Shown here: in pieces, positions 6,415 through 21,995 of the stretch
How the letters are laid out: each line of letters opens with the position of its first letter
How positions within the stretch are numbered: the stretch's first letter is position 1
NCBI RefSeq assembly: GCF_001854325.1
Contig: NZ_CP017755.1
Location: forward strand, 124,001-188,000
Source: Cupriavidus malaysiensis
GTDB lineage: Bacteria > Pseudomonadota > Gammaproteobacteria > Burkholderiales > Burkholderiaceae
Length of the DNA: 64,000 nucleotides
Reading direction: 5' to 3'
Notes under the pieces: generated by a model
The model's input: the letters and a program-made list of their open reading frames with translations, nothing else
Told to the model about the DNA's origin: nothing
Databases searched by the model: none
Position numbers and translations under genes: made by a program

Positions 6415-8013
6415 TCAGGCCCCGCTCCAGGCCTCCCGGTTGATGGTGGCGGCGCCCAGCACCGGGCGCGGCCGCTGCGTGCGCGCCAGGTGTTCCAGCG
6501 CGGGTTCGATCACCTCGGCGAGCTTGTGGAAGGCGGGGCCGATGGTTTCCTCGGGCACGCAGGCGTAGCCCAGCAGCAGGCCCTGCTGCGGTGTCGAGGT
6601 ATCGCTGTAGTAGCGCGACAGCGGGCGCGCGGACAGCCCCTGGGTGCGGGCCGCCATGCTGATGCCGAGGTCGTCGGTGCCCGCCGGCAGGTGCATCACC
6701 ATGTGCAGGCCGGCCTCGTGCGTGGAGGTCGGCCAGTCGGCGCCGAAGCGGGTGGCGATGGCCTCGCGCAACAGGCCCTGGCGCTGGGCATAGCGCTGGC
6801 GCATGCGGCGGATGTGGGTCGCGTAGTGTCCTTCCTCGATGAATTCGGCCAGCACCGCCTGCTGCACCAGCTGGCCTTCGCGGAAGAGCTCGGACTGGGC
6901 GGTGGCGAAGTGCGGGGCGAGCGGCTTGGGCAGCACCATGAAGCCCATGCGCAGGCCCGGGAACAGCGTCTTGGAGAAGGTGCCCATGTAGATCACGCGG
7001 TCGTGCTCGTCCAGGCCCTGCAGCGAGGCCAGCGGCCGTCCCTCGAAGCGGAACTCGCTGTCGTAGTCGTCCTCCACCAGCCAGGCGCCGCGCTGGCGCG
7101 CGTACTCCAGCAGCATGCGCCGCCGCGGCAGGCTCATCACCATGCCGAGCGGGTACTGGTGCGAGGGCGTGACGAAGATGAAGCGCGGCGGGTCCTGCAG
7201 CATGGCGGCATCGGGCGCGATGCCTTCCTGGTCGACCGGTACCGGCAGCGTTTCGATGCCGGCGTTGGTGAGCAGGCTGCGCGTGCCCCAGTAGCCGGGG
7301 TCCTCCATCCACGCCTTGTCGCCCGGGTCGGCCAGCAGCCGCCCGATCAGGTCGATGGCCTGGTGGATACCCGTGGTGAGGATGATCTGGTCGGGCTCGC
7401 AGCGTACCGAGCGCACCAGGCGCAGGTGTTCGGCCAGCACGCGCTTGAGCGGCAGGTAGCCACCGTTGTGCGCATACGTCAGCAGCTCGGGGCGCGGCGC
7501 GCGCCAGACCTTGTTGAGCAGCCGCGCCCAGACCGCGTGCGGGAACAGCGAGACATCGGGCACGCCGGCGACGAAGGCACCCCATTGGCGATCGGATGCA
7601 CTGGCGTGGGACACGAGATGCTGGCCGCGCCGGGAAAGGGTGAATCGGTTTGGATTTTGCTGCACTGCGGGCACTGGCGTGGTGCCACTTTGCGCCTTAC
7701 CGTGGTGCAGTGCACTGTGGTCGGGAAAACTATGCGACACGAAGGTGCCACTTCCCGTCGAGGCCGTGACATAGCCCTCGGCGAGCAGTTGCTCATAGGC
7801 ATAGAGCACGGTGTTGCGCGAGACCCCGACTTCCTTCGCCAGCATGCGCGAAGCGGGCAGCTTGCTGCCCGCCACCAGCGTTCCGGCAAGGATTTCCTGC
7901 CGGATGATGTCGTAGAGCTGGCGGTTCATATGCGCCCCGTTTTTATCCACGGCGCCGCCCGCCGGCCGTTCCAGACGCTGCAGCAGCAGTTCCGACAGAA
8001 TCGTTTCCTTCAA
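6415..8013 (-). CDS. MocR/GabR-type GntR regulator with aminotransferase-like domain
   Basis: This is a PLP-sensing transcription factor. A GntR winged helix occupies about residues 30-105, including LPASRMLAKEVGVSRNTVLY. A linker leads into a fold-type I aminotransferase-like domain with LTTGIHQAIDLI, MEDPGYWG, LVEDDYDSEFRF and the PLP lysine in FSKTLFPGLRMG (Lys348). GabR, PdxR, EnuR and TauR share this layout. It diverges from the catabolic cluster that begins at 8159 and is the obvious candidate regulator. As the cluster holds a GABA-type aminotransferase, GabR is the nearest functional analogue. The effector would be an amine or amino acid, or its PLP adduct; that is inference. Confidence 0.93.
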   Translation of the reverse strand: MKETILSELLLQRLERPAGGAVDKNGAHMNRQLYDIIRQEILAGTLVAGSKLPASRMLAKEVGVSRNTVLYAYEQLLAEGYVTASTGSGTFVSHSFPDHSALHHGKAQSGTTPVPAVQQNPNRFTLSRRGQHLVSHASASDRQWGAFVAGVPDVSLFPHAVWARLLNKVWRAPRPELLTYAHNGGYLPLKRVLAEHLRLVRSVRCEPDQIILTTGIHQAIDLIGRLLADPGDKAWMEDPGYWGTRSLLTNAGIETLPVPVDQEGIAPDAAMLQDPPRFIFVTPSHQYPLGMVMSLPRRRMLLEYARQRGAWLVEDDYDSEFRFEGRPLASLQGLDEHDRVIYMGTFSKTLFPGLRMGFMVLPKPLAPHFATAQSELFREGQLVQQAVLAEFIEEGHYATHIRRMRQRYAQRQGLLREAIATRFGADWPTSTHEAGLHMVMHLPAGTDDLGISMAARTQGLSARPLSRYYSDTSTPQQGLLLGYACVPEETIGPAFHKLAEVIEPALEHLARTQRPRPVLGAATINREAWSGA

Positions 8014-8037
8014 AGTGGCACCTGATGAAATCGGAAA

Positions 8038-8062
8038 TATGGACCTACCTATGGTACCAACC
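8038..8062. promoter_or_regulatory. Candidate MocR operator: direct repeat in divergent promoter region
   Basis: TATGG followed by ACCTACC is repeated as TATGG followed by TACCAACC with a 12 bp pitch (8038 and 8050). Read on the minus strand this is a pair of CCATA direct repeats. It lies 25 bp upstream of the MocR start and about 100 bp upstream of the M20 gene. MocR regulators such as GabR bind direct repeats rather than palindromes, which suits this arrangement. No binding site is proven. Confidence 0.4.
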
Positions 8063-8158
8063 TTGCGTTAATTTTCCAGCGACTTGTTCCTTGCCGTCGC
8101 CTGGCGACGGTCCCTCTGATCTTCCCGGGCCTGGCCCGGACAGCCAGTGGAGTCCCCC

Positions 8159-9502
8159 ATGCAAGACGCTGCCAGCCACGCGCCCGCGAGTGCCGTGACG
8201 CTGCCCACCGAAGCCATCGCGGCCGCCGTGCGGGCGCTCACGCCGTACATGATCGAGACCCTGTCGCAGCTGGTGGCGGCGCCCAGTCCCTCGGGGCAGG
8301 AGCAGCCGGCGGTGGCCGTGATGGAGCGCGCCTTGCAGGACCTGGGGCTGGAGCCGGAGCGCATCTACCTGAACTCCGATTCGCTCAAGCACCTGCCGCT
8401 GTTCTCGCCGCCCTGCTGTCCCGACGGCGGCCGCTACAACCTGCTGGCGGCCTACCGCCCGCCCGTGCCGGGCGGCCGCTCGGTGCTGTTCAACGGCCAC
8501 CTCGACGTGGTCCCGACCGGTCCGGACGCGATGTGGCGCCAGTCGCCCTACGCGCCTTTCGTCGAGGACGGCTGGCTGTACGGCCGCGGTGCCGGCGACA
8601 TGAAGGCCGGCATCGTGTGCGCGCTGGCCGCCTTCAAGGCGCTGGACGCGCTGGGCGCGCGCCCGGCGGGCGCGGTCGGCTTCAATGCGGTGCTGGAGGA
8701 AGAGAACACCGGCAATGGCGCGCTGGCCACGGTGGCGGCGCTGCGCAGCGCGGTGGGCGCGGGCAAGCTGGCGTCCTTCGACACGGTGGTGATCCCCGAG
8801 CCGCTGGGCGAGTGCCTGATGAGCGCGCAGATGGGCGTGTTCTGGATGTTCGTCGAGCTGACCGGGCGCCCGGCGCACGCGGCCTACATGACGTCGGGCG
8901 TCAATCCGGTCGAGGCCGGCATCGCCGTGATGGCCGGCCTGCGCGAGCTGGAAGCCGAGTGGAACCTGCCGCAGAACCGTCCCGCCGCCTATCGCGAGCA
9001 TGCCCACCCGATCAACTTCAACCTCGGCCAGATCCATGGCGGCGAGTGGAATTCCTCGGTGCCGTGCACCTGCACGCTGGGCGTGCGCATCGGCTTCTAT
9101 CCGGACATGGACGTGAACGATGCCAAGGCGCGGGTCGAGGCCTGCATCCGCGCCACGCTGGCGCGCCTGGACAGCAACCTCGACCTTGCCATCCGCTATG
9201 AGGGCTTCCACGCGCCGGGCTGCGAGTTCGATCTCGACACGCCCAGCATGGCCGCGCTGGGCGAGGCCCACCGCAAGGTCCACGGCGAGCCGGTGCGGCG
9301 CCAGGCCACCACGGCCACCACCGATGCGCGCCACTTCAAGCTGATGCTGGAGACCCCCGTGACCTGCTACGGCCCGGAGGCACGCAACATCCACGGCATC
9401 GACGAATCCGTCTCCATCGACAGCATGGTGCGCGTGACCACCACGCTGGCGCAGTTCATCCACGACTGGTGCGGCGTCGAGCCCGCCGGCGTGGCCGGCT
9501 GA
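8159..9502 (+). CDS. M20 metallopeptidase, ArgE/DapE-like deacylase
   Basis: This zinc-dependent hydrolase of the acetylornithine deacetylase/succinyl-diaminopimelate desuccinylase family removes an acyl group from an N-acylated amino compound. Metal-site motifs are FNGHLDVVP, GRGAGDMKAG and EEENTGNG, followed by a dimerisation domain with GRPAHAAY and a final metal-binding block around TTATTDARHF. A GTG start at 8147 is possible, but GGAG at 8149-8152 sits 6 nt before the ATG at 8159, so 8159 is preferred. It is the first gene of the catabolic cluster, divergent from the MocR regulator. The true substrate is unknown. The stop codon lies in an 11-bp triplication. Confidence 0.9.
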   Translation: MQDAASHAPASAVTLPTEAIAAAVRALTPYMIETLSQLVAAPSPSGQEQPAVAVMERALQDLGLEPERIYLNSDSLKHLPLFSPPCCPDGGRYNLLAAYRPPVPGGRSVLFNGHLDVVPTGPDAMWRQSPYAPFVEDGWLYGRGAGDMKAGIVCALAAFKALDALGARPAGAVGFNAVLEEENTGNGALATVAALRSAVGAGKLASFDTVVIPEPLGECLMSAQMGVFWMFVELTGRPAHAAYMTSGVNPVEAGIAVMAGLRELEAEWNLPQNRPAAYREHAHPINFNLGQIHGGEWNSSVPCTCTLGVRIGFYPDMDVNDAKARVEACIRATLARLDSNLDLAIRYEGFHAPGCEFDLDTPSMAALGEAHRKVHGEPVRRQATTATTDARHFKLMLETPVTCYGPEARNIHGIDESVSIDSMVRVTTTLAQFIHDWCGVEPAGVAG

Positions 9503-9532
9503 GGCGCCCCTGAGGCGCTCCTGAGGCGCCCG
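9500..9532. repeat. Three 11-bp tandem units across the M20 stop codon
   Basis: TGAGGCGCCCC, TGAGGCGCTCC and TGAGGCGCCCG follow one another. The first TGA is the gene's stop codon. Because 11 is not a multiple of 3, the three TGA triplets (9500, 9511, 9522) fall in all three forward frames. Confidence 0.9.
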
Positions 9533-9643
9533 ATGGCGAGCCTTGCCGTCACGCGGGGCCGGGCGGGCATGTCCCGCCGCGGCTTTACCCGGATTCCGAC
9601 GACTCCGACGACTTCCACGCACCCACTCAGAGGGAACTGAACG

Positions 9644-11260
9644 ATGACATTCCATTCACCACTGCTGAAGCAGCGGCTGGGCGCGCGCCTGGCCTCGATG
9701 GCGCTGGCGCTGGCCGGCATCGGTTTCGCCGCGCTGGCGCTGCCGGCCGGCAACGCCGCCGCCCAGACCGTCGGCGGCACGTTGTCCGGCATCGTGCAAC
9801 CCGAGCCGCCCACGCTGATCAGCGCGATGAACTCGCAGGCGCCGACGCAGTACGTGGCCGGCAAGATCTACCAGAGCCTGCTGACCTACGGCCCCGACCT
9901 GAAGCCGCGCCCCGAGCTGGCCAGGTCCTGGAAGATCTCGCCCGATGGCCTGACCTACACCTTCGAGCTGCAGAGCGGCGTGAAGTGGCACGACGGCAAG
10001 CCCTTCACCTCGGCCGACGTGGTGTTCTCGGTCGACAAGATGCTGCGCGAGGTGCAGCTGCGCGCGCGCGCCATCATCAACAAGTACATGGAGTCGATCC
10101 GCGCGGTCAACGACACCACCGTCGAGATCAAGCTCAAGGAGCCGTTCCCGCCCTTCATCTCGATGTTCGAGGCCGGCACCATGCCGATCATGCCCAAGCA
10201 CCTCTACGAGGGCACCGACTACCGCAACAACCCGGCCAACCAGAAGCCGGTCGGCACCGGTCCCTTCATGTTCAAGGAGTGGAAGAAGGGCGCCTATATC
10301 AAGCTGGTGAAGAACCCCAACTACTGGAAGAAGGGCAAGCCCTACCTCGACGAGCTGGTGTTCTACGTGATCCCGGACTCCGCCTCGCGCGCGGTCGCCT
10401 TCGAGAAGGGCGACGTGCAGGTGCTGCGCGGCGGCGACGTCGACAACGTCGACGTCAAGCGGCTGCGCGCCCTGCCCAACGTGGACTACACCACCAAGGG
10501 CTGGGAGATGTTCGCGCCGATGTCCAACCTGCTGATGAACACGCGCAAGCCGCCCTTCAACAACGTCAAGGTGCGCCAGGCGGTGATGCATGCGCTCAAC
10601 CGCAAGCTGATCGTCGACAACATCTTCTTCGGCATGGGCAAGCCGGCGGTGAGCCCGTTCTCGTCGACCACGCTGTTCTTCGACAAGAACATGCCGGCCT
10701 ACGACTTCAACCTGAAGAAGGCGCGCGAGCTGATCAAGGAGTCGGGCGTCAACGTGGGCCAGTACCCGGTCAAGATCCTGTCGTCGTCCTACGGCGCCAA
10801 CTGGGACCGTCTCGATGAGTACATGAAGCAGATGCTCGAGCAGCTCGGCTTCAAGGTCAGCATCGAATCGGCCGACGCCGGCACCTGGTCCAGCCGCGTC
10901 AGCAACTGGGACTTCGACCTGACCGCCACCTACACCTACCAGTACGGCGATCCGGCGCTGGGCGTGGAGCGCCTCTATGTGACGCGCAATATCGTCAAGG
11001 GCACGCCGTTCGCCAACGTGCAGGGCTACAGCAACCCGCAGGCCGATGAACTGTGGGCCAAGGCCGGCGCCACCATGGACCCGGCCGAGCGGCAGAAGAT
11101 GTACAGCCAGGTGCAGCAGATCCTGACCACCGACGTCGCCGCCGGCAACCTGTTCGAGATCGAGTTCCCCACGCTCTACCGCAAGAACGTGAAGAACCTG
11201 GTGACGACCGCGATCGGCCTGAACGAGTCCTTCGACAACGTCTCGATCGAAAAGAACTGA
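9644..11260 (+). CDS. ABC transporter substrate-binding protein, family 5 (peptide type)
   Basis: This periplasmic solute receptor belongs to the DppA/OppA class. A signal peptide with a basic N-terminus and a hydrophobic core ends near AAAQT, about residue 41. The family-5 signature region is present (KPRPELARSWKISPDGLTYT, then VKWHDGKPFTSADVVFS), as are GTGPFMFKEW and the hinge-proximal VRQAVMHALNRKLI. GAGGGAACTG precedes the ATG. It starts a four-gene transport block with both permeases and a fused ATPase. Given the neighbouring amidohydrolases and aminotransferase, the ligand may be a short peptide, an acylated amine or an opine-like compound rather than a true dipeptide. That ligand is inference. 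Confidence 0.93.
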   Translation: MTFHSPLLKQRLGARLASMALALAGIGFAALALPAGNAAAQTVGGTLSGIVQPEPPTLISAMNSQAPTQYVAGKIYQSLLTYGPDLKPRPELARSWKISPDGLTYTFELQSGVKWHDGKPFTSADVVFSVDKMLREVQLRARAIINKYMESIRAVNDTTVEIKLKEPFPPFISMFEAGTMPIMPKHLYEGTDYRNNPANQKPVGTGPFMFKEWKKGAYIKLVKNPNYWKKGKPYLDELVFYVIPDSASRAVAFEKGDVQVLRGGDVDNVDVKRLRALPNVDYTTKGWEMFAPMSNLLMNTRKPPFNNVKVRQAVMHALNRKLIVDNIFFGMGKPAVSPFSSTTLFFDKNMPAYDFNLKKARELIKESGVNVGQYPVKILSSSYGANWDRLDEYMKQMLEQLGFKVSIESADAGTWSSRVSNWDFDLTATYTYQYGDPALGVERLYVTRNIVKGTPFANVQGYSNPQADELWAKAGATMDPAERQKMYSQVQQILTTDVAAGNLFEIEFPTLYRKNVKNLVTTAIGLNESFDNVSIEKN

Positions 11261-11307
11261 GCGCGGGACGCGCGCGCGGTCACCGCTGCGCGCCTGACCC
11301 GCCTCCT

Positions 11308-11336
11308 CGCCGGGCCGGCTGCGGCCGCGCCCGGCG
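11308..11336 (+). other. GC-rich intercistronic hairpin after the binding-protein gene
   Basis: CGCCGGGC and GCCCGGCG form a perfect 8-bp stem, with further pairing possible in the GC-rich loop and no following T run. It lies between the binding-protein and permease genes. Such stems often slow 3' decay and give the receptor more protein than the permeases. That role is inferred. Confidence 0.5.
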
Positions 11337-11418
11337 CGAACGGCAGGTGTCCGCCGTCGCCCCGCCTCGTGCCGGGGCACGGCGGGCACGGGCCAGACCT
11401 TGCCGCGTGGAGTGAGCC

Positions 11419-12423
11419 GTGAACTTCCTCTCCTTCCTTTCCGCCCGCCTTGCCAAGGCCATCGTGGTCGTGCTCGGCGTGGTGATCATCAATTTCTTCC
11501 TGATCCGCATGGCGCCGGGCGATCCCGCCACCGTGCTGGCCGGTGAAGCGGGCGCGGGCGACGCCGCCTTCGTCGGGCAGCTGCGCGAGCAGTTCGGCCT
11601 GGACAAGCCGGTGCTGACCCAGCTCGGCATCTACCTGAAGGGCGTGGCCACGCTCGACCTCGGCTACTCCTACCGCAACCACCTGCCGGTGCTCGACCTG
11701 ATCCTGGACCGGCTGCCCGCCACCTTCCTGCTGATGAGCGGGGCCTTCCTCTTCTCCATCGTGATGGGCGTGATGCTGGGCGTGGTGGCGGCGCGCACCC
11801 GCTACGAGAACCGAAGGCGCTGGGTCGACAGCGCGGTCATGTCCGGCGCGCTGCTGCTGTACGCGACGCCACTGTTCTGGCTGTCGCTGATGGCCATCAT
11901 CCTGTTCTCGGTGGTGCTGGGCTGGTTGCCGGCCTTCGGCATGGAAAGCGTGGGCGCGGGCTACACCGGGCTGGCGCGCGCCAGGGACGTGGCCCTGCAC
12001 ATGGTGCTGCCGACCATCTCGCTGGGCTGCTTCTTCATGGCCGTGTACGTGCGCCTGACGCGCGCCTCGATGCTGGAGGTGATGGGCATGGACTTCGTCA
12101 AGACCGCGCGCGCCAAGGGCGTGCCGGCCGGCCGCGTGGTGCGCGTGCACGTGCTGCGCAACGCGCTGCTGCCGGTGGTGACCTTCGCCGGCATCCAGCT
12201 CGGCCAGATGGCCGGCGGCGCGGTGCTGACCGAGACCGTGTTCTCCTGGCCCGGCATCGGCCGGCTGATGTTCGATGCCCTGCTGCAGCGCGACTACCAG
12301 CTGCTGCTCGGCATCTTCTTCGTCACCTCGGCGCTGGTGGTGTTCTTCAACCTGCTGACCGACATCCTCTATCGATTCATCGACCCGCGCATCGCCGTGG
12401 GTGCCAAGGGAGCCGCGGCATGA
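11419..12423 (+). CDS. ABC transporter permease, DppB type
   Basis: This is the first inner-membrane permease of the peptide-type transporter. It has about six transmembrane segments, the N-terminal FFLIRMAPGDPA characteristic of DppB/OppB proteins, and the cytoplasmic EAA loop around DFVKTARAKGVP that contacts the ATPase. It uses a GTG start with GGAG 6 nt upstream. The stop overlaps the start of the next permease by 4 bp (ATGA), implying translational coupling. At 334 aa it has the normal length. Confidence 0.94.
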   Translation: MNFLSFLSARLAKAIVVVLGVVIINFFLIRMAPGDPATVLAGEAGAGDAAFVGQLREQFGLDKPVLTQLGIYLKGVATLDLGYSYRNHLPVLDLILDRLPATFLLMSGAFLFSIVMGVMLGVVAARTRYENRRRWVDSAVMSGALLLYATPLFWLSLMAIILFSVVLGWLPAFGMESVGAGYTGLARARDVALHMVLPTISLGCFFMAVYVRLTRASMLEVMGMDFVKTARAKGVPAGRVVRVHVLRNALLPVVTFAGIQLGQMAGGAVLTETVFSWPGIGRLMFDALLQRDYQLLLGIFFVTSALVVFFNLLTDILYRFIDPRIAVGAKGAAA

Positions 12424-13259
12424 AATCCTTCCTGCTTCGCTACAGCCGCAACTACGGCGCGGTGGCGGGCCTGCTCGTGCTGCTGGCGGTGATCGCGCTG
12501 GCCGTGCTGGCGCCGCTGGTCTACGAGGACTCGCCCTGGCTGATGGTGGCCGAGCCGCTGACGCGGCCCTTCACCGATGGGGCCTATCCGTTCGGCACCG
12601 ACATGCTGGGCCGCGACATCACCGCCGGGCTGGTCTACGGCGCGCGCGTCTCGCTGCTGGTGGGCGTGATCTCCACCGGCGTGGCGCTGGTGTTCGGCAT
12701 CCTGATCGGCTCGGTGGCGGGCTACTGCGGCGGCCGCGTCGACGATGTGCTGATGCGCTTCACGGAGTTCTTCCAGACCATCCCGCAGCTCGCCATGGCG
12801 GTGGTGATCGTGGCCATCTTCAACCCGACCATCTATTCCATCGTCGGCGCCATCTCGGTGGTGTCGTGGCCGCCGGTGGCGCGCCTGGTGCGCGGCGAAT
12901 TCCTCACGCTGAAGCAGCGCGAGTTCGTGCAGGCCGCGGTGGTGATCGGGCAGAAGCCGCTGCGCATCATCTTCACGCAGATCCTGCCCAATGCCATGTC
13001 GCCCATCATCGTCTCGGCTTCCTTCATGGTGGCCACCGCCATCCTGACCGAGTCGGCGCTGGCCTTCCTGGGCCTGGGCGACCGCAACATGATGAGCTGG
13101 GGCTTCATGATCGGCGCGGCGCGCACCATGATCCGCGAGGCCTGGTGGATGAGCGTGTGGCCCGGCGTGGCCATCCTGCTGACGGTGCTGTCGATCAACC
13201 TGATCGGCGAGGGCCTGAACGACGCCATGAACCCCCAGCTGCGCCGCCGCGGCGAGTAG
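12420..13259 (+). CDS. ABC transporter permease, DppC type
   Basis: This is the second permease of the heterodimer. It has a short N-terminal cytoplasmic part, a first membrane segment, a periplasmic part with FGTDMLGRDI typical of DppC/OppC, and an EAA loop around KQREFVQAAVVIGQ. At 279 aa it matches the family. The start codon overlaps the previous stop, and the ATPase gene follows after 12 bp. Confidence 0.94.
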   Translation: MKSFLLRYSRNYGAVAGLLVLLAVIALAVLAPLVYEDSPWLMVAEPLTRPFTDGAYPFGTDMLGRDITAGLVYGARVSLLVGVISTGVALVFGILIGSVAGYCGGRVDDVLMRFTEFFQTIPQLAMAVVIVAIFNPTIYSIVGAISVVSWPPVARLVRGEFLTLKQREFVQAAVVIGQKPLRIIFTQILPNAMSPIIVSASFMVATAILTESALAFLGLGDRNMMSWGFMIGAARTMIREAWWMSVWPGVAILLTVLSINLIGEGLNDAMNPQLRRRGE

Positions 13260-13271
13260 GAGACCCACGCC

Positions 13272-14951
13272 ATGCATCTGATGCAAGCCAATCCAGGCGC
13301 CAACCCGGCCACGCGCGACGGCGCGGCGCCGCTGCTGTCGATCCGCGACCTGTCCATCGCCCTGCCCGCGGGCGGCGACCGGCCCTACGCGGTGCGCGAC
13401 GTGTCCTACGACCTGCACGCGGGCGAGATCCTCTGCATCGTCGGCGAGTCGGGCTCCGGCAAGTCGATGAGCGCCAACGCCATCATGGGACTGCTGCCGT
13501 CCTACCTGAAGCCGGAGCGCGGCCGCATCCTGTTCGAGGGGCGCGACCTGCTGGCGCAGGACGAGGCCACGCTGCTGGGCATGCGCGGCAAGGACATGGC
13601 CATGGTGTTCCAGGAGCCGCTGTCGGCGCTCAATCCGGTGATGACCATCGGCGAGCAGATCGCCGAGGTGATGCGCGTGCACCATGCCTATCCGGGCGAA
13701 GCCTGCCAGCGCCGCGTGCTGGAACTGCTGGAGTTCGTCGGCCTGCCCGATCCGGCCGCGCTGGTGCACAGCTACCCCTTCCGCCTGTCGGGCGGCCAGC
13801 GCCAGCGCGTGGTGATCGCCATGGCGCTGGCGCTGGAGCCCAAGCTGCTGATCGCCGACGAACCCACCACCGCGCTCGATGTCACCACGCAGGCGCAGAT
13901 CCTGGCGCTGATCCAGCGCATCCAGGCCGAGAAGGGCATGGGCGTGATGTTCGTCACCCACGACTTCGGCGTGGTGGCCGAGATCGCCGACCGCGTCGCG
14001 GTGATGGAGAAGGGCGTGCTGGTCGAGGCCGGGCCTGCGGCCCAGGTGCTGAACCATCCGCAGCACCCCTATACGCGGCGCCTGATCGCGGCGGTGCCGC
14101 ACGGCCGCGCCGGCGACGGTGCCGAGGCGCGGCGCAAGGAGGAGGTGGTGCTCGACGTGCGCGGCCTGCGCAAGACCTATGTCTCCGGCGGCGGGCTGTT
14201 CGCGCGCAAGCGCGTGGTGCACGCGGTCGATGGCGTCAGCTTCTCGGTGCGGCGCGGCGAGACGCTCGGCATCGTCGGCGAGTCCGGTTCGGGCAAGTCG
14301 ACCATCGGCAAATGCCTGCTGCGCCTGACCGATATCGACGGCGGCGAGCTGCATTTCGACGGGCAGGATATCGCCCGCCTGTCCGAGCGCCAGTTCCGCC
14401 CGCTGCGGCGCGACGTGCAGATGATCTTCCAGGATCCTTTCGCCTCGCTCAACCCGCGCCATACGGTGGGCCGCATCATCAGCGACGGCCCGGTCGCCAA
14501 CGGCGTGCCGCCGGCGCAGGCCGAGGCGCGCACGCGCGAGCTGCTGGAGCTGGTCGGCCTGGAGGCGAGCGCCTTCGACCGCTACCCCAACCAGTTCTCG
14601 GGCGGGCAGCGCCAGCGCATCGGCATCGCGCGGGCGCTGGCGCTGGAGCCCAAGCTGCTGGTGGCCGACGAATCGGTCTCGGCGCTCGACGTCTCGGTGC
14701 AGGCGCAGGTGCTGGCCCTGCTCGATACGCTGCAGCGCAAACTGGACATCGCCCTGATCTTCATCACCCATGACCTGCGCGTGGCGGCGCAGATCTGCCA
14801 CCAGGTCATCGTGATGCACAAGGGCAAGGTGGTCGAGTCCGGCCCGCCGGACCAGATCTTCGATGCCCCGCAGCACCCGTACACGCAACGCCTGATCGGC
14901 GCCATTCCCGGCAAGGAGTGGGACCCGTCGGCGATCCGCGCCGCCGCCTAG
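13272..14951 (+). CDS. Fused dual ATP-binding protein (DppD-DppF type)
   Basis: One polypeptide carries both nucleotide-binding domains of the peptide-type transporter. The first domain has Walker A GESGSGKS, signature LSGGQRQR and Walker [10 protein letters not shown]. The second repeats these as [16 protein letters not shown] and [12 protein letters not shown]. The C-terminal oligopeptide-type extension [13 protein letters not shown] is present after the second domain, and an equivalent follows the first. At 559 aa it is twice the length of a single ATPase. In the second domain the residue after Walker B Glu is Ser rather than Pro, which is common in DppF-like proteins. TAGGAGA lies 9 nt before the start. 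Confidence 0.94.
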
Positions 14952-15030
14952 GCGACGGCATGCCCCCACCGCCAATCCACCATTCCGCCAATCCAGCCGA
15001 ACTCGACCCCGACCCTTTGGAGCCTCACAG

Positions 15031-16293
15031 ATGAAGAATGCCGAACTGGTCCGCCGCAAGGACGCCGCCACCCCGCGCGGCGTCGGCGTGATGTGCAATT
15101 TCTACGCCGAACGGGCCGACAATGCCGAGATCTGGGACGTCGAAGGCAAGCGCTACATCGACTTCGCCGCCGGTATCGCCGTGCTGAACACGGGCCACCG
15201 CCACCCGCGCCTGGTGCAGGCCATCGAGCGCCAGCTCGCGCGCTTCACCCATACCGCCTACCAGATCGTGCCCTACGCCAGCTACGTGGAGCTGGCCGAG
15301 AAGATCAATGCGCGTGCGCCCGGCCGCTTCGCCAAGAAGACGGCCTTCTTCACCACTGGCGCGGAGGCCGTGGAGAACGCCATCAAGATCGCCCGCGCGG
15401 CCACCGGCCGGCCCGGCGTGATCGCCTTTTCGGGCGGCTTCCACGGCCGCACCATGATGGGCATGGCGCTGACCGGCAAGGTGGTGCCCTACAAGGTGGG
15501 CTTCGGCCCCTTCCCGGGCGAGGTCTATCACGCGCCCTATCCCTGCGAACTGCATGGCGTCACGGTGGAGGACTCGCTCAAGAGCCTGCAGCACCTGTTC
15601 AAGGCCGACGTCGATCCGCGCCGCGTGGCGGCCATCATCTTCGAGCCGGTGCAGGGCGAGGGCGGCTTCAACGTGGCCCCGCCCGCCTTCGTCGAAGCGC
15701 TGCGCGCCCTCTGCGACGAGCACGGCATCCTGCTGGTCGCCGACGAGGTGCAGACCGGTTTCGGCCGCACCGGCAAGCTGTTCGCCATGGAGCACTACGG
15801 CGTGGTGCCGGACCTCACCACCATGGCCAAGAGCCTGGCCGGCGGCATGCCGCTGTCGGCCGTGTGCGGCCGCGCCGAGGTGATGGACGCGCCGGCGCCC
15901 GGCGGCCTGGGCGGCACTTATGCGGGCAACCCGCTGGCGGTGGCCTCGGCGCTGGCCGTGCTGGACGTGCTGGAAGCCGAACAGCTGCCGGCACGCGGCG
16001 CGCTGCTGGGCGAGCGGCTGGTGGCGCGGCTGCAGGCCCTGCAGCCGCGCGTGCCGCAGATCGCCGAAGTGCGCGGCCTCGGCGCCATGGTGGCGGTCGA
16101 GTTCCGCCAGGCCGACGGCAGCCCGGACGCGGCCTTCACGCGCGAGGTGCAGAACCGCGCGCTGGAGCGCGGCCTGCTGCTGCTGTCGTGCGGCGTGTAC
16201 GGCAATGTGATCCGCTTCCTGTTCCCGCTCACCATTCCCGACGGAGTGATGGAGGAAGGACTGGATATCCTGGCCGACGTGCTGACGCGCTGA
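15031..16293 (+). CDS. gabT: 4-aminobutyrate-type aminotransferase
   Basis: This is a class III PLP aminotransferase that moves an omega-amino group from GABA or a related amine to 2-oxoglutarate, leaving a semialdehyde. It follows the E. coli GabT sequence pattern from end to end: IPRGVG-like N-terminus, WDVEGKRYIDFAAGIAVLNT, TTGAEAVENA, IAFSGGFHGRTMMG, IFEPVQGEGG, LVADEVQTGFGRTG and the PLP-lysine block TTMAKSLAGGMPLS. TTTGGAG precedes the ATG. No succinate-semialdehyde dehydrogenase gene lies beside it, which is unusual for a plain GABA pathway. A related omega-amino substrate is therefore possible. Confidence 0.9.
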   Translation: MKNAELVRRKDAATPRGVGVMCNFYAERADNAEIWDVEGKRYIDFAAGIAVLNTGHRHPRLVQAIERQLARFTHTAYQIVPYASYVELAEKINARAPGRFAKKTAFFTTGAEAVENAIKIARAATGRPGVIAFSGGFHGRTMMGMALTGKVVPYKVGFGPFPGEVYHAPYPCELHGVTVEDSLKSLQHLFKADVDPRRVAAIIFEPVQGEGGFNVAPPAFVEALRALCDEHGILLVADEVQTGFGRTGKLFAMEHYGVVPDLTTMAKSLAGGMPLSAVCGRAEVMDAPAPGGLGGTYAGNPLAVASALAVLDVLEAEQLPARGALLGERLVARLQALQPRVPQIAEVRGLGAMVAVEFRQADGSPDAAFTREVQNRALERGLLLLSCGVYGNVIRFLFPLTIPDGVMEEGLDILADVLTR

Positions 16294-16317
16294 CGCCAAC
16301 CGCACCGGAGCAAGCAG

Positions 16318-16629
16318 ATGACGAGAGCCCAGGCAGTGCCGACCGTGCAGGTCGACAACGAACGCGTGACGGTGACCGAATGGCGCTTTGCGCCGGGGGC
16401 CGAGACCGGCCATCACCGCCACGGCTACGACTATGTGGTGGTGCCGATGACGAGCGGCCCGCTGCGCCTGCAGACACCGGCCGGCGAAGTCACCAGCCAG
16501 CTGGTGGCGGGGCAGGCCTATTACCGTCCGGCAGGGGTCGAGCACAACGTGATCAATGCGCACGAGGGCGAGTGCGTCTTCGTCGAGATCGAGATCAAGC
16601 GCCCGCCCGCCGATGGGGCGGCATCATGA
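16318..16629 (+). CDS. Small single-domain cupin protein
   Basis: This 103-aa protein is almost entirely one cupin barrel. The first motif is visible as GAETGHHRHGYDYVVVP, with two adjacent His and a third His that can bind a metal. The second motif is degenerate, GQAYYRPAGVEHNVIN, keeping its His. GGAG lies upstream, and the stop overlaps the start of the ThDP enzyme by 4 bp (ATGA), so the two are translationally coupled. It may be a small isomerase, dioxygenase or binding protein of the pathway. The sequence does not decide between these. Confidence 0.8.
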   Translation: MTRAQAVPTVQVDNERVTVTEWRFAPGAETGHHRHGYDYVVVPMTSGPLRLQTPAGEVTSQLVAGQAYYRPAGVEHNVINAHEGECVFVEIEIKRPPADGAAS

Positions 16630-18383
16630 GCGAGGGCGCAGCGACCGCAGCGACCGTGGCGACCGCAGCGGGCACGGCGCCGCTGCGCGAGCGCAATGGC
16701 GGGCAGATCCTGGTCGAGCAGTTGCGCATCCAGGGCGTCAAGCGCGTGTTCCTGGTGCCGGGGGAGAGCTACCTGCCCTGCATCGATGCGCTGCACGACC
16801 ACCAGGATGCGATCCAGCCCATCGTCTGCCGCCAGGAGAGCGGCGCCGGCTACATGGCGGAGGCCCACGGCAAGCTGACCGGCGAGCCCGGCATCTGCTT
16901 CGTCACGCGCGGGCCCGGCGCCACCAATGCCAGCATCGCCGTGCATACGGCCTACCAGGACTCGACGCCGATGATCCTGTTCGTCGGCCAGGTGGGCAAC
17001 GACTTTGCCGAGCGCGAGGCCTTCCAGGAGATCGACTACCGCCGCATGTTCGGCCAGATGGCCAAGTGGGTGGCGCAGATCGACCGTACCGAGCGCATCC
17101 CCGAGTTCATCGCGCGCGCCTTCGCGGTGGCCACCAGCGGGCGTCCCGGCCCGGTGGTGCTGGCGTTGCCGGAGGACACGCTGTGGGGCAAGGCCAGCGT
17201 GCCCGACATGCCGCGCTACCAGCGCGCGCGCAGCGCGCCGGCACCGGCTGCGCTCGATGCGCTGCAGACCCTGCTGGCCGGCGCGCGCCGGCCCTTCCTG
17301 CTGGTCGGCGGCTCGGGCTGGACGGCAGCGGCGCTGCGCGACCTGGAGACCTTCGCCGAGCGCTTCGACCTGCCGGTGGGCGTGGCCTGGCGCCGGCTGG
17401 AGTGCTTCGACAATCACCATGCCAACTATGCCGGCCATGTCGGCTGGGGCATGGACGATGCGCTGCGCGCGCGCATCCGCGACGCCGACCTGCTGATCGC
17501 GGTCGGCACACGCATGGGCGAGGCGACCACCGAGGGCTACACGCTGGTGCAGAGTCCGCTGCCGCGGCAGACCCTGGTCCACGTCTATCCGGATGCCGGC
17601 GAGCTGGGGCGCGTCTTCCGCGCCGAGCTGCCGATCGCCGCCGACGTGGTGTCCTTCGCCGCCGCGGCGGCGGCCCTGCGCCCGGCCGCCGAACCCGCCT
17701 GGCGCGGCCTGGCGCGCGCCGCCCATGCCGGATTCCTGGCCCACCAGCAGGCCCGGCCGGCGCCGGGGCCGCTCAACCTCGACCGGGCGGCCTGCGTGGT
17801 GCGCGAGCGCCTGCCGCGCGATGCCTGCCTCACGGTTGGCGCCGGCAACTATGCGCTGTTCCCGCACACCTACTACCGCTTCCAGGGGCCCGGCACCAGC
17901 CTGGCGCCGACGGTGGGCTCGATGGGCTACGGGCTGCCGGCCGCGATCTCGGCCAAGCTGGAATACCCGCAGCGCACCGTGGTGTGCTACGCCGGCGATG
18001 GCTGCTTCCAGATGAACCTGCAGGAGCTGGGCGTGGCGATGCAGTACCGGCTCGGCATCGTGCTGCTGGTCTTCAACAACGGCATGTGGGGCACCATCCG
18101 CGCCCACCAGGAACGCGAGTTCCCGGGCCGCACCATCGCGCTGGAGTTCGACAACCCCGATTTCGCCGCGCTGGTGCGCGCCTACCGGGGCCACGGCGAG
18201 GTGGTGCAGAGCGACGCCGAGTTCGGCCCGGCGCTGGAGCGCGCGCTTGCCTTCGCGCAGGAGCACAGCCTGCCGGCGCTGATCGAGATGCGCTACGAAG
18301 CGGATGGCATCGCTCCCGGACAGACCTTGTCCGGCATCCGTGCGGCGGCGCTGGCGCAACGGGCGCCGGCCGCCGTGCCCTGA
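16626..18383 (+). CDS. Thiamine diphosphate-dependent enzyme, acetolactate-synthase-like
   Basis: A 585-aa ThDP enzyme of the acetolactate synthase, benzoylformate decarboxylase and pyruvate oxidase superfamily. The catalytic Glu that activates ThDP is Glu71 in CRQESGAGYMAEAHGK. The pyrophosphate-binding motif is GDG at residues 457-459, ending in NN at 484-485. A RGPGATN loop follows the first domain, as in acetolactate synthases. The start ATG overlaps the cupin stop. No regulatory small subunit is adjacent, so branched-chain biosynthesis is unlikely. It probably ligates or decarboxylates a 2-oxo acid in the catabolic route, but the substrate is not evident. Confidence 0.85.
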   Translation: MSEGAATAATVATAAGTAPLRERNGGQILVEQLRIQGVKRVFLVPGESYLPCIDALHDHQDAIQPIVCRQESGAGYMAEAHGKLTGEPGICFVTRGPGATNASIAVHTAYQDSTPMILFVGQVGNDFAEREAFQEIDYRRMFGQMAKWVAQIDRTERIPEFIARAFAVATSGRPGPVVLALPEDTLWGKASVPDMPRYQRARSAPAPAALDALQTLLAGARRPFLLVGGSGWTAAALRDLETFAERFDLPVGVAWRRLECFDNHHANYAGHVGWGMDDALRARIRDADLLIAVGTRMGEATTEGYTLVQSPLPRQTLVHVYPDAGELGRVFRAELPIAADVVSFAAAAAALRPAAEPAWRGLARAAHAGFLAHQQARPAPGPLNLDRAACVVRERLPRDACLTVGAGNYALFPHTYYRFQGPGTSLAPTVGSMGYGLPAAISAKLEYPQRTVVCYAGDGCFQMNLQELGVAMQYRLGIVLLVFNNGMWGTIRAHQEREFPGRTIALEFDNPDFAALVRAYRGHGEVVQSDAEFGPALERALAFAQEHSLPALIEMRYEADGIAPGQTLSGIRAAALAQRAPAAVP

Positions 18384-18389
18384 GGCGCA

Positions 18390-18417
18390 CCGCCCGGCAC
18401 CGTGCGGTGCCGGGCGG
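18390..18417 (+). other. Intercistronic 12-bp perfect hairpin
   Basis: CCGCCCGGCACC and GGTGCCGGGCGG pair perfectly around a 4-nt loop just after the ThDP enzyme stop. There is no T run, so it is unlikely to be an efficient intrinsic terminator. It could act in mRNA processing or stability between the ThDP enzyme and amidohydrolase genes. Confidence 0.55.
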
Positions 18418-18476
18418 GCACCTGCCATGGCGCGGGCCGCCGCCGGCCCGCGCGCTTACCAAGAGAACACCACAAG

Positions 18477-19550
18477 ATGCGCGCTTTCTTCTCGGATGAC
18501 CAGTTGTTGCACCAGCCGCGCCAGTTCATGCGCGCGGGACGGCTCTGCGAGCCGACCGACGTGCCCGCGCGCGCCGCCGCGCTGCAAGGCGCGCTGGCCG
18601 GCCGCGGCATCGCGCTGGCGGCGCCGCCGGACTACGGTCGCGCGCCGCTGGAAGCCGTGCACAGCCCGGCCTACCTCGACTTCCTGGAGCAGGCCTATGC
18701 CGATTGGCAGGGCCTGGCCAAGCCCGGCTTCACTCCGGGCATCGAAGTGCTGCCCAACCTTTCGCCCTACCACAACGGCCGCATCGAGCAGGGACGCCGC
18801 CCGCCATGCCCGGCGGATTCGGTGATCGCGCGCGCCGGCTACTATCTCGGCGACCTGAGCTGCCCGCTCGGCCCGGACAGCTGGCGCGCCATCCTGCGCT
18901 CGGCGCATAGCGCGGTGGCGGCGGCGCAGCATGTGTGCGAGCCGCAGCACCGCTGCGGCCTGGCCTACGCGCTGTGCCGCCCGTCGGGCCACCACGCCCA
19001 CAGCGACCGCGCCGCCGGCTTCTGCTACGTCAACAACTCCGCCATCGCCGCCGAGACGCTGCTCAAGCGCTTCGGCAAGGTGGCGGTGCTGGACGTGGAC
19101 GCCCACCACGGCGACGGCACCCAGCAGATCTTCTACCAGCGCGCCGATGTGATGACGATCTCGCTGCATGCCGACCCGTCCGGCTACTACCCGTTCTACA
19201 GCGGTTACGCCCACGAGCGCGGCTACGGCGCCGGCTACGGCTACAACCTCAATTTCCCGCTGGCCCACGGCACCGAGGACGCCGGCTTCCTGGCCGCGCT
19301 GGACAGCGCGCTCGACGCCCTGCGCGACTACCGCCCGCAGGCCCTGGTGCTGGCGCTGGGCTTCGACACCTATATGCACGACCCGATCAGCGTGCTGCGC
19401 CTCGGCATGGACGCCTACCGCGGCATCGGTGCGCGCATCAATGCGCTCGGCGTGCCCGCCGTGGTGGTGCAGGAGGGCGGCTACGAGGTCGACGCCATCG
19501 GCCTGGCGCTCGATGCCTTCCTGTCCGGCTTCATGCCGGTGGCGGCCTGA
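18477..19550 (+). CDS. Acetylpolyamine amidohydrolase-like enzyme (histone deacetylase superfamily)
   Basis: This zinc deacetylase of the HDAC superfamily is closest to bacterial acetylpolyamine amidohydrolases, which release acetate from acetylputrescine and similar amines. All catalytic residues are visible: the His pair in SGHHAH (His172-His173), zinc ligands Asp208 and His210 in DVDAHHGDGT, Asp297 in LGFDTY, and the transition-state Tyr336 in EGGYEV. An N-terminal MRAFFSDDQLL segment and the loop before the active site match the dimeric acetylpolyamine enzymes rather than eukaryotic deacetylases. The start ATG at 18477 has only a weak AAGAGA upstream. Position beside a GABA-type aminotransferase supports amine catabolism. 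Confidence 0.88.
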   Translation: MRAFFSDDQLLHQPRQFMRAGRLCEPTDVPARAAALQGALAGRGIALAAPPDYGRAPLEAVHSPAYLDFLEQAYADWQGLAKPGFTPGIEVLPNLSPYHNGRIEQGRRPPCPADSVIARAGYYLGDLSCPLGPDSWRAILRSAHSAVAAAQHVCEPQHRCGLAYALCRPSGHHAHSDRAAGFCYVNNSAIAAETLLKRFGKVAVLDVDAHHGDGTQQIFYQRADVMTISLHADPSGYYPFYSGYAHERGYGAGYGYNLNFPLAHGTEDAGFLAALDSALDALRDYRPQALVLALGFDTYMHDPISVLRLGMDAYRGIGARINALGVPAVVVQEGGYEVDAIGLALDAFLSGFMPVAA

Positions 19551-19602
19551 AGCAGCGGGCCGGGGGCGCGGAGCGCTCCGGCCCGGCACAGAACCACAGC
19601 AG

Positions 19603-19621
19603 GGGCGCCGGCCCGGCGCCC
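19603..19621 (+). other. Short perfect intercistronic palindrome
   Basis: GGGCGCCGG and CCGGCGCCC are separated by one base, 17 bp before the next gene. No T run follows. It resembles the GC-rich hairpins at two other junctions of this cluster. Confidence 0.4.
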
Positions 19622-19637
19622 GATTTGGAGCCCCTTC

Positions 19638-20882
19638 ATGACGAATCTGCAGATCAACGGACAGCGGCTGTGGCAGTCGCTGATGGACCTGGCAAGGATC
19701 GGCGCCACGCCCAAGGGCGGCAATGCGCGCCTGGCGCTGACCGCGCTCGACGGGCAGGGGCGCGACCTCGTGTGCGGCTGGATGCGCGAGGCGGGCCTGA
19801 CGGTCACGGTCGACCAGGTGGGCAATATCTTCGGCCGCCGCGCCGGGCGCAATGCCGCGCTGGCACCGGTGATGACCGGCAGCCATATCGACACCCAGCC
19901 GACCGGCGGCAAGTTCGACGGCTGCTTCGGCGTGCTGGCGGGCCTGGAGGTGATGCGTACACTCAACGACCACGGCATCGAGACCGAGGCCCCGCTCGAG
20001 CTGGCGATCTGGACCAATGAAGAGGGCACGCGCTTCGTGCCGGTGATGATGGGCTCGGGCGTGTTCGCCGGCGTCTTCCCGCTGCAGACCGCGCTGGAAG
20101 CCACCGACGCCGAAGGCAAGCGCGTCGGCGACGAGCTGCGCGCGATCGGCTACGCCGGCGCGGCCGAAGTGGGCGGCCGGGCGCTCGGCGCCTATTTCGA
20201 AGCGCATATCGAGCAGGGGCCCATCCTGGAGGAGCAAGGCAACGTGATCGGCGTGGTGACCGGCTCGCTGGGCCTGCGCTGGTACGACGTGACGGTCACG
20301 GGCATGGAGGCGCACGCCGGCCCGACGCCGATGCCGATGCGGCGCGATGCGCTGTTCGGCGCCACCTTCCTGATGCAGGAAGTGGTGCGCATCGGGCGCG
20401 ACTTCGCCCCGCACGGGCGCGGCACGGTCGGCGTGGTCAACGTGCATCCGGCTTCGCGCAACGTCATTCCCGGGCAGGTCCGCTTCACCGTGGACCTGCG
20501 CCATGAGGATGCCGCGCAGCTCGCGCAGATGGACGCGCGTTTCCGTGCCGCCTGCGAGGCGCTCGCCGCCGGCGACACCACCGGCACCGCGCTCGACGTG
20601 ACGGTGCAGGACGTGCAGTATTTCGCGCCCACGCCGTTCGCGCCGGAACTGGTGGCGCAGGTGCGCGCGCAGGCCGCCGCGCGCGGCTACGCGCACCAGG
20701 ACATCGTCACCGGCGCGGGCCACGACGCCGTCTACATCGCCGGCGTGGCGCCGACGGCCATGATCTTCGTGCCGTGCAAGGACGGTATCAGCCACAACGA
20801 AGTGGAAGATGCCCGGCCCGAGCACCTGGCGGCCGGCGCCGACGTGCTGCTGGGCGCGATGCTGGCGCAGGCCGGGTCATGA
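19638..20882 (+). CDS. Zn-dependent amidohydrolase, N-carbamoyl-L-amino acid hydrolase family
   Basis: This is an M20-superfamily amidase of the carbamoylase, allantoate amidohydrolase and beta-ureidopropionase group. Metal-binding blocks are MTGSHIDTQPTGGKFDG, IWTNEEGTRF, EAHIEQGP and GAGHDAVY with HNEVE near the C-terminus. GMEAHAGPTPM marks the dimerisation domain. It would hydrolyse an N-carbamoyl or N-acyl L-amino acid to the free amino acid. GGAG lies before the ATG in a context very like that of the gabT gene (TTTGGAGCC). The stop overlaps the start of the EamA gene. The exact substrate cannot be told from sequence. Confidence 0.9.
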   Translation: MTNLQINGQRLWQSLMDLARIGATPKGGNARLALTALDGQGRDLVCGWMREAGLTVTVDQVGNIFGRRAGRNAALAPVMTGSHIDTQPTGGKFDGCFGVLAGLEVMRTLNDHGIETEAPLELAIWTNEEGTRFVPVMMGSGVFAGVFPLQTALEATDAEGKRVGDELRAIGYAGAAEVGGRALGAYFEAHIEQGPILEEQGNVIGVVTGSLGLRWYDVTVTGMEAHAGPTPMPMRRDALFGATFLMQEVVRIGRDFAPHGRGTVGVVNVHPASRNVIPGQVRFTVDLRHEDAAQLAQMDARFRAACEALAAGDTTGTALDVTVQDVQYFAPTPFAPELVAQVRAQAAARGYAHQDIVTGAGHDAVYIAGVAPTAMIFVPCKDGISHNEVEDARPEHLAAGADVLLGAMLAQAGS

Positions 20883-21787
20883 GCGGCGCGGCGCGCGGTG
20901 CGCCGGCCGAATGGCGCACCGGCGCCTGGATCTTCCTGTGCGTGGTCGCATTGTTCGCCACCGTCGATGCCACCGCCAAGCACCTGGTCGGACGTTATCC
21001 CGCGCCCTTCCTCAATGCGGTGCGCTATGCGGCCACCTTCGCCGTGGCGCTCGGCATGCTGGCGGTGCGCGGCCGCGCGCGCTGGTGGGACACGCCGCAC
21101 CGCGCGCTGCTGGTGGTGCGCGGCCTGATGCTGGCAGTGGTGGGCACCTGCTTCATGACCGCGTTGCTGTGGATGCCGCTGGCCGAGGCCACGGCCATCT
21201 ACTTCATGGCGCCGCTGCTGGTGGTGGCGCTGTCGCCCTGGGTGCTGGGCGAGCGCGTCGGCGCGCGCCAGTGGCTGGCGGTGGTGGCGGGCTTCGCCGG
21301 CATGCTGCTGATCGTGCGCCCGGGTGGCCGGCTGCCGGCGCTCGGTACCGCGCTGATGCTGGCCGCGGCGCTGGCCTATGCGCTGCTGCAACTGCTGACG
21401 CGGCGCATGGCGGGCCGCGTCGACGCCGGTGTGCAGTACGGCTTTGCCGCGGTGATCTGCCTGCTCGCCACCGGCGTGCCGGCACCCTTCTTTCCGCCGG
21501 CGGCCTGGCCGGGCCTGGCCGACTGGTGCGCGATGCTGGCCATGGGCCTGATGAGCGCCGCCGCGCAGGTGCTGCTGATCTTCGCGCTGCAACGTGCGCC
21601 GGCTTCGACGCTGGCGCCGCTGAACTATTTCCATCTGCTGCTGGCGCTGCTCTACAGCGCACTGTGGTTCGGTCGCTGGCCCGACGGCGTGGCCCTGGCG
21701 GGCATCGGCCTGATCATGGCCGCGGGCTTGAGCCTGACGCTGCCGCGGCGTACTTCCCCGTCACTGCCAGAGATGGCGCGTCGATGA
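20879..21787 (+). CDS. EamA/DMT-family transporter
   Basis: A ten-helix inner-membrane transporter with two EamA repeats. The first spans about residues 10-140 with LLWMPLAEATAIYFMAPL, the second about residues 150-290. Members export amino acids, metabolites or drugs. The start ATG overlaps the upstream amidohydrolase stop by 4 bp, so it belongs to the same transcript as the catabolic cluster. There it may export a product or balance the amine pool. That role is inference. At 302 aa it has the usual length. Confidence 0.88.
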   Translation: MSGAARGAPAEWRTGAWIFLCVVALFATVDATAKHLVGRYPAPFLNAVRYAATFAVALGMLAVRGRARWWDTPHRALLVVRGLMLAVVGTCFMTALLWMPLAEATAIYFMAPLLVVALSPWVLGERVGARQWLAVVAGFAGMLLIVRPGGRLPALGTALMLAAALAYALLQLLTRRMAGRVDAGVQYGFAAVICLLATGVPAPFFPPAAWPGLADWCAMLAMGLMSAAAQVLLIFALQRAPASTLAPLNYFHLLLALLYSALWFGRWPDGVALAGIGLIMAAGLSLTLPRRTSPSLPEMARR

Positions 21788-21995
21788 CACCCCGCGGGCC
21801 CGGCCCCGGGTCCGTGGACCGCCGGAACGGCGCGTGCGGACGGCGTCGCCGCGTGGCGGGGATGGCACGTTGCTTGCGGCGCATGCCGCAGCGCCGCCGC
21901 GGCGCACCGTCCGGGCGCAGCGCCCGGCGTGCCGCGGCGGGCGACCCCATCCGCGGGCGGGCATGGTGCCGGCCCCACGCCAGAGGGAGGTTTCC

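Follow-up and report, generated by a model that had tools for sequence, protein, structure and literature searches.

A MocR-linked gene cluster of Cupriavidus malaysiensis with a possible role in feeding N-substituted amino compounds into 4-aminobutyrate catabolism

Gene content of the cluster

The window analyzed here is the whole 64,000-nucleotide stretch C2:124001-188000 of Cupriavidus malaysiensis, the genome of which has 7.95 Mb in three contigs, and our subject within it is a putative catabolic gene cluster with a gene for a MocR/GabR-type regulator (GntR plus aminotransferase; 6415-8013, minus strand) at one end. This mocR gene is divergent from eleven plus-strand genes (8147-21787), the open reading frames of which were checked in the window. 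The original prediction for this DNA described ten same-strand genes with several 4-bp overlaps opposite a MocR gene; the divergence was observed, as were three such overlaps (permease/permease, cupin/thiamine diphosphate (ThDP) enzyme and carbamoylase/EamA), and the gene count is corrected to eleven. All of the gene families that it named were found to be present and open.

Families were assigned to the cluster proteins with Pfam and NCBIfam. The plus-strand genes begin with an M20 deacylase of the ArgE/DapE family (8147-9502), followed by a transporter made up of a peptide/nickel-type ABC substrate-binding protein (9644-11260), ABC permease 1 (11419-12423), ABC permease 2 (12420-13259) and a fused dual ABC ATPase of the Dpp/Opp type (13272-14951). 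The two permeases were named without a domain search, from Chelatococcus relatives (67% and 73% respectively) that are annotated as ABC permeases. Next come a class III 4-aminobutyrate (GABA) transaminase of the GabT/PuuE type (15031-16293), a 24-bp gap (16294-16317), a cupin protein (16318-16629), a ThDP enzyme (16626-18383), an AphA-like amidohydrolase of the histone deacetylase (HDAC) fold (18477-19550), an amidase of the hydantoinase/carbamoylase family (19638-20882) and an EamA/DMT transporter (20879-21787). On the flanks, a FAD-linked oxidase of the GlcD/D-2-hydroxyacid dehydrogenase family (4826-6262, minus strand) lies 3' of mocR on the same strand, and a TctC/Bug solute-binding protein (21990-23012, plus strand) adjoins the other end, a place that it holds in only some related clusters.

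Three of the enzymes scored above the cut-offs of their family models. GabT passed the GABA transaminase model TIGR00700 (627.1 bits; cut-off 506.65), with PuuE proteins as its best PDB relatives. The ThDP enzyme, which is 2-oxo-acid decarboxylase-like, belongs to the PRK08199 subfamily (864.4 bits; cut-off 539), and the carbamoylase to TIGR01879 (410.9 bits against 204), with a score of 413.1 bits against the N-carbamoyl-beta-alanine amidohydrolase PDB 8c46. A glyoxylate carboligase or allantoin pathway was considered and rejected: the ThDP enzyme is only weakly related to glyoxylate carboligase (about 147 bits), and the name 'allantoate amidohydrolase' for the carbamoylase is a generic subfamily label only. 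Homologues of the ThDP enzyme at about 57% occur at C1:3133 kb of the same genome and in one other Cupriavidus, in a different context with neither carbamoylase nor AphA in the 15-kb slices.

The AphA-like enzyme has an intact active site, as had been claimed: H172, H173, D208, H210, D297 and Y336 align with the zinc and catalytic residues of the Mycoplana ramosa acetylpolyamine amidohydrolase, and each of them is conserved in all 49 close-group sequences or in 48 of them, the window copy included. The fold, the zinc site and the PIS and EGGY motifs are common to AphA and the acetylpolyamine amidohydrolases PA1409, PA0321 and that of M. ramosa. According to PMC11532494, tested bacterial polyamine deacetylases bear RPP and EGGY motifs, and polyamine selectivity is tied to residue 106 (Glu in M. 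ramosa and His in PsApaH), in a loop that varies. The close group differs in having S at the third position of RPP (48 of 49 sequences; A in one) and in a group-specific arginine, R141, which is invariant in all 49, is R or K in 35/35 sequences of the distant group and W in 16/16 of a second AphA type (AphA2), and aligns, on our reading of the alignment, with W, S, A and S in four PDB relatives. The Glu106 position is hydrophobic throughout (I/V/L in 49/49 close-group, I/V/L/M in 35/35 distant-group and V in 16/16 AphA2 sequences), and is weak evidence because the RPP-bearing AphA2 and the distant group share this property. The label 'acetylpolyamine-type' is doubtful, RPS standing against RPP, and we do not class the enzyme with the acetylpolyamine amidohydrolases, cluster 4 of PMC11532494.

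In the divergent promoter, an operator-like footprint (8040-8060; TGGACCTACCTATGGTACCAA) with the direct repeat TATGG was found by intergenic alignment. Of nineteen mocR-side regions sought, eighteen were obtained and seventeen aligned, one being too long. The footprint is kept with few changes in thirteen Cupriavidus-type loci, while L075 and three loci of Bordetella have it in a weaker form. The exact pattern has a single occurrence in the genome. Looser matches numbered five genome-wide against eleven for a reversed-pattern control and so do not exceed it, and for this reason no further regulator target is claimed. Among NCBIfam models, the mocR product scored 323.7 bits with GabR (cut-off 600) and 431.1 with PdxR (cut-off 320).

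Conservation among congeners and the missing dehydrogenases

When 200 genomes of the family were searched with the ThDP protein, an 82-83% relative was found in nine other genomes of the same genus, and all nine loci were compared. The FAD oxidase, MocR, M20 enzyme, substrate-binding protein, both permeases, ATPase, GabT, cupin, ThDP enzyme, AphA and carbamoylase occur in the same order in all nine clusters, and EamA in eight. The proteins are 78-93% identical to those of the window (MocR; 84-88%). The oxidase gene adjoins mocR in each congener, truncated by the slice end in most; its place is taken in four loci of Bordetella by a tartrate-dehydrogenase-like gene (typed in L072). The co-occurrence check that had been proposed thus showed nearly all genes kept in order, although nine of nine is not a frequency because the loci were chosen by their ThDP gene. 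In the genus search, 27 of the 60 genomes had the carbamoylase at E<=1e-180. The cluster is a true and conserved one, beyond chance.

The absence of an aldehyde dehydrogenase had been used as an argument against a GABA route. The absence holds for the window copy, where there is no gabD match even at 1e-5 and neither a gabD nor a PuuC-type gene; it does not hold for most related copies, and the argument falls with it. In eight of the nine congeners, gabT and the cupin gene are separated by a further gene at the position of the 24-bp gap, and the one copy that was typed (L044; 485 residues) is a succinate-semialdehyde dehydrogenase, GabD, which passed the NCBIfam equivalog cut-off (PRK11241; 838.9 against 828 bits). 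Eight of the nine also have another aldehyde dehydrogenase gene, located after that of the carbamoylase or EamA; the closest NCBIfam model of the one typed is PuuC, at 676.8 bits and below the cut-off of 850. The best homologues of the congeners' gabD elsewhere in the C. malaysiensis genome are 73%, 72% and 68%.

This genome also holds a second, partial copy of the cluster (C2:311001-331000; L039), with GabT (88%), the ThDP enzyme (79%), the carbamoylase (85%) and a PuuC-type dehydrogenase (83%). A 35-residue gabD remnant lies directly after its gabT, AphA was not found within the 20-kb slice, and the gabT-ThDP-carbamoylase-PuuC-type genes are divergent from GntR-MFS-RraA-HpcH genes. Since the congeners and this second copy keep dehydrogenase genes, their absence from the window copy is most simply explained by local gene loss. 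A single genome can therefore mislead, as the dehydrogenases missing here are kept by most related clusters.

Distribution, co-variation and variant clusters

The best 80 of 136 AphA relatives were scanned for neighbouring genes, in slices of unequal length with misses included and in loci that overlap with the nine congeners. At an AphA identity of at least 80% (fifteen loci), the ABC gene and the cupin were each found in fourteen, GabT in thirteen, the carbamoylase in twelve, GabD in ten, and the ThDP enzyme, PuuC and EamA in nine each. At 62-79% (25 loci), EamA (24) and the ABC gene (23) are almost always present; the carbamoylase occurs in seven loci and the ThDP enzyme and PuuC in two each. 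The coupling of these genes with AphA fades with distance. In a sample of the phylum, an AphA relative was found at E<=1e-60 in 87 of 398 genomes.

For co-variation we used the 38 AphA-anchored loci that span 17 kb or more and have an ABC gene; the genomes are related, and Fisher values ignore this kinship and cannot be read as probabilities. The ThDP enzyme and the PuuC-type dehydrogenase occur together in thirteen loci, the ThDP enzyme alone in one, PuuC alone in none and neither in 24; L108 enters this count through a 39% aldehyde dehydrogenase, and its exclusion gives 12, 2, 0 and 24. For the ThDP enzyme and the carbamoylase the corresponding numbers are 13, 1, 3 (carbamoylase only) and 21, and for GabT and GabD they are 11 (both), 5 (GabT only), 1 (GabD only) and 21.

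Several variant clusters were observed. The set found in Bordetella and Achromobacter is smaller and consists of the transporter, cupin, AphA and EamA, with GabT in two of five loci. Variovorax and its relatives have the transporter, a GhrA-like 2-hydroxyacid dehydrogenase, an omega-aminotransferase, AphA, EamA and sometimes the carbamoylase, together with AphA2, an APH-type kinase and a class III aminotransferase, the last two of which resemble the two ends of PRK06148. In L080 (13449-16838) and its relatives, AphA2, the kinase and the aminotransferase form a tight unit. We take the kinase and aminotransferase of these loci to recall kinase plus phospholyase pairs, an analogy that suggests a hydroxy-amine as the possible substrate of the unit. 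Much of the Variovorax-type cluster was also seen in the C. malaysiensis genome itself (C1:468001-494000, with the genes at C1:475-488 kb; L150/L151), where AphA2 is present and the first AphA and the carbamoylase are absent.

Two Chelatococcus plasmids (L140 and L141) carry gabT, a ThDP gene of the PRK07586 subfamily, the transporter, AphA, carbamoylase, kinase, aminotransferase, EamA and cupin, directly adjoining the ectoine/hydroxyectoine catabolism genes eutBC-doeAB-ehuBC. Ectoine catabolism was rejected as a role and treated as a neighbour, DoeA, DoeB and EutB having been found only in L140 among 31 loci. ThDP genes of the same kind as in these plasmids (family c17; seventeen loci) also lie within slices of Bosea-type AphA loci. 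Four further loci (L190, L191, L160 and L163) have an AphA-like gene and a carbamoylase side by side, with the other cluster genes absent from the slice.

The ThDP, carbamoylase and PuuC genes also occur as a unit of their own. When ThDP was sought elsewhere at E<=1e-180 in eight genomes, four (L060, L061, L077 and L072) were found to have an AphA cluster without ThDP and a ThDP gene at another place, two (L067 and L071) have no ThDP gene at this threshold, and two have it inside the cluster. Among fourteen ThDP/carbamoylase regions compared, eight have AphA beside the carbamoylase and six show the order ThDP-carbamoylase-PuuC with no AphA in the slice. Together with L039, these give seven AphA-less units, which have genes for GntR (7/7), HpcH/CitE-like (7/7), RraA-like (6/7), MFS (6/7) and TRAP (2/7) proteins, and gabT in six of seven slices, the Bordetella unit lacking it. 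The unit of L192 is flanked by gabT-gabD on one side and by a Dpp-type transporter on the other. Set against L072 and L183, the order in the window (16318-21787) resembles two interleaved operons, cupin-[ThDP]-AphA-[carbamoylase]-EamA-[PuuC in congeners].

Relation to known systems

The Puu putrescine pathway consists of PuuABCDE. The present cluster resembles it in the PuuC-type dehydrogenase (of the congeners and the second copy), the PuuE-type transaminase and the predicted passage from an N-acyl-4-aminobutanal through N-acyl-GABA to GABA. It would differ in the replacement of PuuD by an HDAC-fold or carbamoylase-type hydrolase; PuuA, PuuB and PuuD were not seen among the scanned cluster genes, a search that did not extend to the rest of the genome. 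The arginine transaminase (2-ketoarginine) route proceeds through AruH/AruI-KauB-GbuA and shares with the cluster a ThDP 2-oxo-acid decarboxylase, an aldehyde dehydrogenase and a hydrolase leading to GABA, whereas the ThDP enzyme of the window is a PRK08199 member, far below the cut-off of the AruI model (PRK07524), and no guanidinobutyrase was seen in the cluster.

A further likeness is to the GabR regulons predicted by Suvorova and Rodionov 2016 (PMC5320631), the main text of which places GabR with gabT, gabD, dppABCD and argE in betaproteobacteria. It names gabT2 and dppABCD in Bordetella and a B. avium regulon with gabT3, a COG2334 kinase and argE. For Ralstonia it gives transporters of the Dpp kind and, in two of the species, argE. 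The divergent MocR, the Dpp transporter, gabT, the ArgE-like M20 enzyme and the gabD of the congeners agree with this description, as do the Bordetella clusters seen here. The statement that no described pathway has this gene set was accordingly too strong. The hydrolases and the ThDP enzyme make the difference, since the main text does not name them and has no mention of acetylpolyamine, carbamoyl, acetolactate, EamA or histone deacetylase family protein. The cluster is a variant of GABA catabolism as already known, and part of it had been predicted in 2016.

Proposed role of the cluster

A combination of import, N-deacylation or decarbamoylation, omega-transamination and a ThDP enzyme of the 2-oxo-acid type had been proposed for this cluster, and at the level of families it is supported by the gene content, conservation and co-variation described above. 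Our preferred reading, to which we give a probability of roughly 0.4, is that of a MocR(GabR)-controlled scavenging operon by which N-substituted C4-C5 amino compounds would be funnelled into the GABA shunt; every reaction in it, the order of the steps and the substrate are what we infer from the families. The Dpp-type transporter would import the N-substituted compound and the M20 enzyme may strip an alpha-N-acyl group. The ThDP enzyme would convert a 2-oxo acid to an N-substituted 4-aminobutanal, candidates being 2-oxo-5-ureidopentanoate (from citrulline) and its 5-acylamino analogue (from Ndelta-acylornithine). The PuuC-type dehydrogenase would then give the N-substituted GABA, from which GABA would be released by the carbamoylase-type enzyme if the group is ureido, or by the HDAC-fold enzyme if it is acyl, and GabT followed by GabD would lead through succinate semialdehyde to succinate. 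This end of the route is probably fixed by GabT and by the GabD of relatives. In C. malaysiensis, the PuuC-type enzyme may be supplied from the second copy (C2:323.8 kb) and the succinate-semialdehyde dehydrogenase from another locus.

The co-variation of the PuuC relative with the ThDP enzyme makes decarboxylase, aldehyde, acid the simplest order, and the PuuC substrate in E. coli, gamma-glutamyl-4-aminobutanal, is likewise an N-acylated aminoaldehyde. The carbamoylase co-varies with both, which is suggestive of a ureido acid; citrulline would then be the C5 source, leading to 4-ureidobutyrate and GABA. Citrulline or Ndelta-acylornithine as the substrate is nevertheless a guess, and the specific route from one or both of these (possibly with lysine homologues) by ThDP decarboxylation to 4-ureido- or 4-acylaminobutyrate, and on to GABA through either the carbamoylase or an HDAC-fold enzyme that no longer acts on polyamines, is somewhat unlikely; no description of it was found in the titles and abstract starts of the open-licence literature. 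A 2-hydroxy acid could instead be the substrate of the FAD oxidase, or of the GhrA-like enzymes found in related clusters. We count in favour of the scavenging operon that L039 keeps GabT, ThDP, carbamoylase and PuuC-type genes together, and that the Chelatococcus and Bosea-type loci have an AphA-like gene in the neighbourhood of a ThDP gene, albeit one from another subfamily.

A number of observations weigh on the other side. The ThDP enzyme scored 250.4 bits with the 2-ketoarginine decarboxylase model, below its cut-off of 500, while the PRK08199 cut-off was passed in none of fourteen named control genomes and no characterised member was found. Within the cluster, neither an alpha-aminotransferase nor an amino-acid oxidase was observed. 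Among the 40 loci with an AphA identity of 50-61%, only five have the ABC gene, three ThDP and two PuuC, and a Dpp-type ABC gene is present in three of the eighteen phylum-sample AphA loci outside the C. malaysiensis genome. The Bordetella AphA clusters lack both ThDP and carbamoylase. The separate unit is tied to HpcH/CitE-like and mostly RraA-like genes and to MFS or TRAP transporters, which the model does not explain.

These same HpcH and RraA-like genes are the best evidence for an alternative in which two units share one operon, GabR-Dpp-GabT-cupin-AphA-EamA and a ThDP-carbamoylase-PuuC unit acting on an unrelated 2-oxo or ureido acid. The occurrence of the first unit without ThDP in Bordetella and in some Cupriavidus-type loci, the seven loci with the second unit and no AphA in the slice, and the apparently interleaved order in the window all agree with it. 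However, gabT in six of the seven separate-unit slices suggests that these units may likewise feed an omega-amino acid, and ThDP and AphA-like genes lie close together in alphaproteobacteria too. We regard this explanation as unlikely. Acetylpolyamine catabolism, with N-acetylputrescine or N-acetylcadaverine imported, deacetylated by AphA and the diamine converted to GABA or 5-aminovalerate, would account for the AphA fold and its PIS and EGGY motifs. PA1409 and PA0321 help Pseudomonas aeruginosa to grow on acetylputrescine (PMC4784309), and PuuC-type dehydrogenases and PuuE-type GabT belong to putrescine routes (also in the main text of PMC5320631). It leaves the ThDP enzyme and the carbamoylase unexplained, though, and the cluster showed no diamine aminotransferase, oxidase or PuuA/B. 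Also against it, RPS stands for RPP in 48 of the 49 close relatives, and R141 is invariant among them where all sixteen AphA2 have W (the hydrophobic Glu106 position, shared by those sixteen, being non-discriminating alone). We hold this reading to be distinctly unlikely. Uptake and use of plain GABA or GABA-peptides, as in the GabR regulon of the 2016 prediction and with the remaining genes as accessories, matches the gabT, gabD, dppABCD and argE set of that paper, yet the ThDP enzyme, AphA, carbamoylase and PuuC-type dehydrogenase are kept in most of the nine congeners and are unneeded for free GABA. We hold this to be the least probable of the alternatives and a very unlikely one.

If the scavenging of N-substituted amino compounds into the GABA shunt is the true role, it would give substrates to families that are vaguely described at present, namely the PRK08199 ThDP enzymes, the PRK09290-type amidases and the AphA-like proteins now named histone deacetylase family or acetylpolyamine amidohydrolase. 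It would also explain a gene set that has been re-assembled in several forms across the beta- and alphaproteobacteria.

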